Of a DNA stretch of 45,357 bases, positions 17,190 to 18,674 are shown piece by piece. The first letter of the stretch is position 1, and each line of letters opens with the position of its first letter. The notes below the pieces were generated by a model. The model did not search any database and was not told where the DNA came from. It worked only from the letters and a program-made list of their open reading frames with translations. The stretch comes from an uncultured bacterium (GTDB taxonomy: Bacteria; Oederibacteriota; PGYV01; Palsa-1178): the NCBI GenBank assembly GCA_937889595.1, contig CALAOR010000080.1, positions 1 through 45,357 of the forward strand, given 5' to 3'. A program made the translations under genes and the position numbers.

Positions 17190-18674
17190 CTAATACAACA
17201 ACTGGCAGTGCAGGCCGCCCGCTCCCCAGGCGTATGTCGGTACTGTTACCACTTTAAAACCATACTTTTTGAACGCTTTTTCCCATTCGTCATATATGGG
17301 ATTTTTGTCTTTTACCGATTCATCCATAATTGCCGATGTTGCCTTGATGCTGTCCTGCAGTTCATTATATGTGCCGCTGTCCGCGTTATCATACCAGACC
17401 TGATAGGCATTTTCCAAATTTTTATACGCCCTCATTATCTTTGCCTGAGTCGTATTGGGGTCGGTTATGGGCAGATGGTTCGGGTATTTTGCCAGCAGCA
17501 CTGTTTCCTCACCCGTGTCCCGGTCGCGGTACCTGACTATATTGACCGGGCAGCGGACAGGATGGTCGGCAAAACGGAGCCTTTCTATTATATAACCGAG
17601 CTCTTTTAGCTGTCCGGCTACGGCGTCATATTCAGCCTGGCAATGGCTGACATAATCAGCGGAGAATTTTATCTGTGTTATCCCGTCATAACTATCCTTA
17701 TCCATGGAGGGTATGAACGCTATTGGGCTGCCCCCCCTGGGGTTTGGAAGCACCGCGCACACCATGTCCAGGTGGAACAATTCATCGCTTCCCCTGTCAT
17801 GATTTGCCAGCATTATTTCAGGCAGGAACATTATTTTCAGGCCGTAAACTGCCTGTGAAAAAGCCGAACGAGCCTCCTCTATGTAGTCATCGGAAATCGA
17901 ACTTTTGTCAAAATATATACCCCTTGACCTGTTAAGGTAGCGTATTGCCCTGTGCCTTCCGGCGATAAATACTATATTATTATCCGGTGCAAACACCAGG
18001 TTCTCATCCCCGCCCTCCATGGAGATGCGGTCCCCGGTATCCTTCAATGTGAATTTATCGGGGAATGTTTGTGCTATTTTTTTCACGGCCTGCGGATATC
18101 CGTACATGTCCGCGTTGCTGTACCCGAGTATTTTCCTGCCTTTTTTGTCAAACCCCAGCACTTTGCAGATATCCTGCGGCCATTCGAGCCGCAAAGGCGC
18201 CTTGAAGAATTCGAATCTTTGCCTGATCTCTTTTTCAGTCATTCCGACATTTTTCTTCAGATATTCGATGAAATATTCCTTTTCCCTTCCCCTTGACTCG
18301 GGAACAAATTTTTTATCGGGCAGCCCCACATAAAAGTGTGCATATGACGGCAGGTTCGGGATGATGTCGCCGTGTGTCAATTCGAAATTAAGCCAGTAAA
18401 ACTGTTCCTCGATATGCCTTTTTTGTTCCTCTGTGGCCAAAGCCGGCCATTTCATCGCAGGGAAAAAATAACCCGTTTCCTGGTTCGGCCATAAGCCCAG
18501 TACTGCAAACTCCATGAACCGTTCCGCTTCCGGCACGATCATTACCCGCCCGTTCTCCGCCATAATACCCCTGTGTTCCCTGACCGGTTTTACATCCGCC
18601 GCGGAAATACAGGCGCAAACAATTACGGAGAACATGATAATTACAATTTTTTTTAACAATCTTTTTACAGTCAT
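17190..18674 (-). CDS. exported pentein-superfamily (guanidino-modifying) enzyme
   Basis: The 494-residue protein has an N-terminal signal (hydrophobic residues 8-24, VIVCACISA). The rest carries the spaced catalytic marks of agmatine-deiminase and arginine-deiminase-like penteins: EGGDENLVF (acid at 220-223), FHLDM (His 301, Asp 303) and a C-terminal GAGGLHC (Cys 490), the expected nucleophile. Penteins attack the guanidinium carbon of arginine-like substrates. The order and spacing fit, but residues 40-210 are unlike the usual short N-terminal blades, so substrate and exact reaction are unknown. AGGTG lies 6 nt before the ATG. The strong terminator at 17043 follows, and no pathway neighbour is visible. 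The call rests on motifs only. Confidence 0.65.
   Translation of the reverse strand: MTVKRLLKKIVIIMFSVIVCACISAADVKPVREHRGIMAENGRVMIVPEAERFMEFAVLGLWPNQETGYFFPAMKWPALATEEQKRHIEEQFYWLNFELTHGDIIPNLPSYAHFYVGLPDKKFVPESRGREKEYFIEYLKKNVGMTEKEIRQRFEFFKAPLRLEWPQDICKVLGFDKKGRKILGYSNADMYGYPQAVKKIAQTFPDKFTLKDTGDRISMEGGDENLVFAPDNNIVFIAGRHRAIRYLNRSRGIYFDKSSISDDYIEEARSAFSQAVYGLKIMFLPEIMLANHDRGSDELFHLDMVCAVLPNPRGGSPIAFIPSMDKDSYDGITQIKFSADYVSHCQAEYDAVAGQLKELGYIIERLRFADHPVRCPVNIVRYRDRDTGEETVLLAKYPNHLPITDPNTTQAKIMRAYKNLENAYQVWYDNADSGTYNELQDSIKATSAIMDESVKDKNPIYDEWEKAFKKYGFKVVTVPTYAWGAGGLHCQLLY

Follow-up and report, generated by a model that had tools for sequence, protein, structure and literature searches.

A Predicted Pentein-Fold Protein, Probably Exported, and Its Family in the Uncultured Phylum FCPU426

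Locus and Sequence Features

The window analysed here is a 45,357-nucleotide stretch of DNA from an uncultured bacterium (contig CALAOR010000080.1 of assembly GCA_937889595.1). It encodes a 494-aa protein of predicted pentein fold, probably exported, which is proposed below to act as a Cys-dependent guanidino hydrolase. The features of its gene are listed with reference to the peptidylarginine deiminase of Porphyromonas gingivalis (PPAD) and to agmatine deiminase (AgDI).

17190..18674, minus strand: open reading frame (ATG start) for a pentein-fold protein of 494 aa, probably exported; based on models, conservation and the ratio of nonsynonymous to synonymous substitution rates (dN/dS)
18597..18674, minus strand: probable signal peptide spanning about residues 1-26, with a charged n-region, a hydrophobic core at 10-24 and small residues at 24-26
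18171..18182, minus strand: W165-P-Q167-D168 with the putative guanidinium-binding Asp (PPAD W127/D130, AgDI W93/D96); W, Q and D invariant; aligned with W-x-R-D of agmatine deiminase; modelled before strand 171-175
18006..18017, minus strand: E220-G-G-D223; invariant; aligned with agmatine deiminase E155GG; precedes strand 224-228
17763..17777, minus strand: F300-H301-L-D303-M304 with the putative catalytic His and second guanidinium-binding Asp; invariant; aligned with agmatine deiminase H216/D218; short helix before strand 307-309, block predicted local distance difference test (pLDDT) value 91
17541..17567, minus strand: D370-H-P-V-R374-x-P376-x-N378, family signature and Asn position; D, H, P, V, R, P and N invariant; N378 before strand 380-383
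17205..17219, minus strand: G486-G487-L-H489-C490 with the putative catalytic Cys; the only invariant Cys; segment aligned with arginine deiminases at their GGxxC terminus; short helix 488-491

A first-pass annotation of this DNA had placed EGGD at residues 220-223, the His of FHLDM at 301 and the Cys of GGLHC at 490. The 494-aa reading frame is real and these positions are correct. Judging from its substitution pattern, the gene is under purifying selection and encodes a maintained protein, since dN is 0.093 against a dS of 0.744 (NG86) in comparison with the nearest relative (84% identity). Third codon positions hold 155 of the 249 differences between the two genes.

Conserved Residues

The family set comprised ten proteins, namely the window protein and nine relatives (30-84% identity), from eight FCPU426 genomes. 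The alignment of the ten has sixty invariant positions. These include W165, Q167 and D168; E220-D223; H301, L302 and D303; D370-H-P-V-R374, P376 and N378; and G486, G487, H489 and C490. Each of the seven putative catalytic positions is unchanged in 10 of 10 members, and they stand in the pentein order, and C490 is the sole Cys common to all members. The order of the invariant residues agrees with the catalytic set of PPAD, which consists of W127/D130, H236, D238, N297 and C351 (PMC4487231). By position and pattern, N378 would be the equivalent of PPAD N297.

W165-x-Q167-D168 and N378 come in addition to the three motifs noticed in the first-pass annotation. EGGD, FHLDM and GGLHC are present and invariant in the ten members, as had been claimed, but EGGD is not the first motif of the series, being preceded by W165-x-Q167-D168. 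For searches, the family may be represented by the signature W-x-QD ... EGGD ... FHLDM ... DHPVRxPxN ... GGxHC.

Predicted Fold

Structures were predicted using AlphaFold2 without templates for two queries, the window protein and the most divergent relative (30% identity); both runs share one ten-sequence alignment and are separate in the query only. The model of the window protein has a pLDDT of 83.4 and a predicted TM-score (pTM) of 0.84, and that of the relative has values of 84.4 and 0.85, respectively. In a Foldseek search of the PDB with the window model, 45 of 45 matches at E <= 0.001 are penteins. The best match is PPAD (6i0x, E 1.2e-8, 481 alignment columns), followed by Medicago agmatine iminohydrolase (6nic) and human PAD4. 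For the second model, all 50 matches listed are penteins, with Campylobacter jejuni agmatine deiminase (6b10, E 8.5e-9) in first place, and its leaders are agmatine deiminases and PPAD, all at about 1e-8.

The secondary structure of the window model consists of five repeats, of which II-V have the beta-beta-alpha-beta arrangement. After each of the strand pairs 171-185, 224-239, 307-323 and 380-396 come a helix and another strand, and a helical pair is inserted at 409-453. W165-D168, E220, H301/D303 and N378 directly precede the first (inner) strand of the pairs, and C490 lies within a short C-terminal helix. In Medicago agmatine iminohydrolase, short core helices precede the inner strands and the C-terminus completes unit I (PMC6447857); the placement of the residues in the window model, whose catalytic segments partly have low pLDDT, fits this arrangement. 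Together, the models support a pentein fold, i.e., a single-domain, five-bladed alpha/beta propeller, modelled with reasonable confidence. The earlier call of a pentein is thereby borne out through structure prediction and fold comparison, as the models of two family members match solved guanidino-modifying penteins best and the catalytic set is invariant.

Profile Comparison with Known Deiminases

The family was compared with eight agmatine deiminases and nine arginine deiminases (ADI) using hhalign. The agmatine deiminases were fetched with a consensus-like sequence that served only as bait, and the aligned sequences were all taken from database records. Against agmatine deiminases, residues 102-327 were aligned with D168, E220, H301 and D303 in register, at a low score (E 0.028). 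Against arginine deiminases, the C-terminal segment containing C490 was aligned with an E-value of 0.00037, and the score of 39.2 exceeded those of all 40 column-shuffled controls (maximum 23.6). The AgDI and ADI families detect each other at an equal level (E 0.00026). The guanidinium Asp is residue 94 in agmatine deiminase and 176 in arginine deiminase, numbered by the first sequence of each set. Alignments produced in the global mode of hhalign were meaningless and were discarded, and a profile comparison of the family with AstB of Escherichia coli gave no match.

N-Terminus and Export

The N-terminus of the window protein, KRLLKKIVIIMFSVIVCACISA, is laid out like a signal peptide, with a hydropathy of 3.23 over residues 10-21 and a helix at 2-26 in the model. 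A hydrophobic N-terminal stretch occurs in 10 of 10 members (12-residue mean hydropathy of 2.1-3.2 versus at most 2.1 elsewhere), and no lipobox is conserved across them. The signal-peptide call is based on hydropathy; on these grounds, export is likely. Because genes for AcrB-type and OmpA-type proteins are also present in the window, two membranes are probable for this cell, and the pentein protein is probably periplasmic or secreted.

The signal peptide named in the first-pass annotation agrees with the hydrophobic N-terminus of all ten members, whereas the "170 extra residues" that it described before the first motif do not form a separate domain, because the first motif is W165-x-Q167-D168 and not EGGD. 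In the sequence and the model, the 165 residues before W165 are accounted for by the signal peptide of about 26 residues and pentein repeat I.

A PF04371 protein encoded on the Diaphorobacter sp. HDW4B plasmid NZ_CP049906.1 (2094-3494) has a twin-arginine-type (Tat) N-terminus, RRTFGQQVTGLAAAPLLAAL. Judging from this Tat-like signal, it is probably an exported pentein outside Porphyromonas, and Porphyromonas, named in the first-pass annotation as the known example, is not the only case.

Distribution of the Family and Library Searches

The gene is present in 8 of 45 FCPU426 genomes, including that of the window, and two genomes carry two copies each. In the multiple alignment, the nearest relative is 84% identical to the window protein and all others are 30-38% identical. 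No relative was found in the plasmids, phages and viral contigs searched. Beyond FCPU426, one contig scan was conducted with exact 8-residue patterns, which finds close relatives only. As far as sequence searches reach, the family turned up nowhere but in a part of the genomes of the uncultured phylum FCPU426, and restriction to this phylum is not claimed because the search outside it was limited.

Searches of Pfam, NCBIfam and PHROGs gave no credible match to the window protein, single-sequence and profile searches of PDB sequences gave chance matches only, and a fold search of BFVD gave no match. A weak match to the RAP domain (best E 0.0034, 5 of 10 members) was taken as chance. The PF04371 profile matches none of the ten family members and nothing in the FCPU426 genomes (a true member scores 266 bits), so that a placement of the protein in the agmatine deiminase/PPAD family is not supported. 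The PF02274 profile has no match in the window protein, the family members or any of the 45 FCPU426 genomes. Given the absence of matches in these 45 genomes, no deiminase of the PF04371 or PF02274 families was found beside the pentein protein. The family members match neither PF03068 (PAD_C) nor PAD_N nor PAD_M, and PF03068, searched for in the window's own genome only, was absent there. By these profile searches, the family stands apart from the agmatine deiminase/PPAD, arginine deiminase and vertebrate-type PAD families, and it is described in none of the family libraries searched.

Gene Neighbourhood

The pentein gene is apparently solitary. A glycosyltransferase gene (19010-19798, minus strand) lies upstream across a gap of 336 bases, and a gene for a kelch-repeat lipoprotein (15366-16652, minus strand) lies downstream across a gap of 538 bases. 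The upstream region at 19010-26943 encodes a family-2 glycosyltransferase, an AcrB-type resistance-nodulation-division efflux pump (20165-23257), a DUF347 membrane protein and a histidine kinase/response regulator pair. Among the neighbours scanned, none is arginine-related. On the other side, 11732-16652 contains two tandem pairs of kelch-repeat (12843-14219 and 15366-16652) and OmpA-type (11732-12808 and 14255-15331) genes, apparently a duplicated module.

The surroundings of the pentein gene vary between genera. In one genus (three genomes; L012, L014 and L015) and not elsewhere, it is flanked by an amidohydrolase gene on one side and by S41 peptidase and polysaccharide deacetylase genes on the other. 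In two genera, large secreted glycoside-hydrolase-like proteins (32% identical) adjoin it (L016:4595-7699 and L020:1419-4589). This adjacency was dismissed as probable chance, since homologues are abundant in these genomes, with 15 or more matches in many of them.

Proposed Function and Alternatives

We propose, with a probability of roughly 65%, that the models and conserved residues describe an exported single-domain pentein acting as a periplasmic or extracellular Cys-dependent guanidino hydrolase. Such an enzyme would probably be an arginine or peptidyl-arginine deiminase, and our guess at its likeliest substrate class is arginine in free, C-terminal or peptidyl form. Export, catalysis and the chemical step are our inference, and the chemical step is modelled on the mechanism of PPAD (PMC4487231). 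The signal peptide would carry the protein through the inner membrane, and D168 and D303 would hold the guanidinium group. C490 would attack the central carbon of the guanidino group, giving a covalent amidino intermediate, with H301 as the acid/base and N378 and E220 in support. Ammonia would leave, and water would then free the ureido product (citrulline or another ureido compound). The invariant R242 and R374 may, at a guess, bind the carboxylate of a substrate, in keeping with arginine in free or C-terminal form.

Several points weigh against this proposal. The best PDB matches have modest TM-scores of 0.45-0.63, a large root-mean-square deviation and an identity of about 10-13%. Segments 161-170 and 481-494 have a pLDDT of 51-65 (about 65 for W165-D168 and 51-59 for the C490 helix), and the pocket is not resolved in the model; because the Cys and W-x-Q-D segments reach only these values, we infer, rather than observe, that the catalytic residues share one pocket. 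The gene neighbourhoods examined yielded no arginine-related partner. Lastly, W-x-Q-D stands where bacterial deiminases usually have W-x-R-D; PAD4 presumably also reads W-x-Q-D.

An exported pentein that keeps the fold and residues could act on a substrate other than arginine, e.g., guanidino acids, methylated arginine or another C-N electrophile. The invariant DHPVR signature, which the aligned AgDI and ADI sets lack, would suit such a change, and penteins are catalytically versatile, with DDAH, succinylarginine dihydrolase and 2-nitroimidazole hydrolase (PMC11659421) among the examples. However, the guanidinium-binding Asp pair is complete and no particular alternative substrate is favoured by positive evidence, so that we consider this unlikely. 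An amidinotransferase, passing the amidino group on instead of hydrolysing it, is considerably more improbable: such enzymes do have this fold and the Cys/His/Asp set, and the second model matches SxtG (6u1r, E 3.4e-5), but hydrolases are far ahead in both fold searches, and we know of no precedent for a two-substrate transferase outside the cytoplasm. A fortuitous motif set on an unrelated fold would fit the failure of every sequence library searched to recognise the window protein, yet it is highly improbable and already disfavoured, with penteins in all top places of the fold searches for two divergent members and seven catalytic positions invariant in the right order.

To our knowledge, few penteins act outside the cytoplasm, and bacterial protein citrullination has been discussed mainly for PPAD. 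An exported, deep-branching environmental family unseen by the libraries searched would make extracytoplasmic guanidino chemistry broader than thought. A more speculative idea, which we hold to be doubtful, is that these proteins are peptidyl-arginine deiminases that are exported, belong to neither the PPAD nor the vertebrate-type PAD family and citrullinate envelope or environmental proteins in FCPU426; if true, extracellular protein citrullination would have arisen independently once more.

Comparison with Known Systems

The vertebrate/cyanobacterial-type PAD (PF03068; PAD4) resembles the window protein in fold (E of about 1e-5) and in the positions of Trp and Asp (W347/D350; PMC4487231), whereas the window protein has no PAD_N or PAD_M domain. 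Arginine deiminase ArcA (PF02274) shares the EGGD and HLD motifs (MHLDT in ArcA, FHLDM in the window protein), the Gly/Arg pair after EGGD and a C-terminal segment ending in GG-x-x-C. The window protein has no PF02274 match; ADI is cytoplasmic and encoded in arc operons.

Agmatine deiminase/iminohydrolase (6b10, 6nic; PF04371) agrees in the fold, the motif order W-x-[RQ]-D, E-G-G, H-x-D, GG-x-HC and the core helices before the inner strands (PMC6447857). Those enzymes are cytoplasmic polyamine enzymes of 12-13% identity, whereas the window protein has a longer repeat I and the helical pair 409-453.

PPAD (6i0x, 4yt9; PF04371) differs in sequence, with an identity of about 10%, and the window protein falls outside PF04371, has W-x-Q-D in place of the W-x-R-D of PPAD and shows no evident invariant counterpart, at equal spacing, of the carboxylate-binding R152/R154. 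It also lacks the C-terminal Ig-like/type IX secretion system domain of PPAD, ending at residue 494, four residues past C490. In other respects, the two are alike: the predicted pentein fold matches over nearly the full length, PAD_N and PAD_M domains are absent from both, the W/D, H, D, N and C positions follow in equal order, and PPAD is exported, as the window protein probably is.
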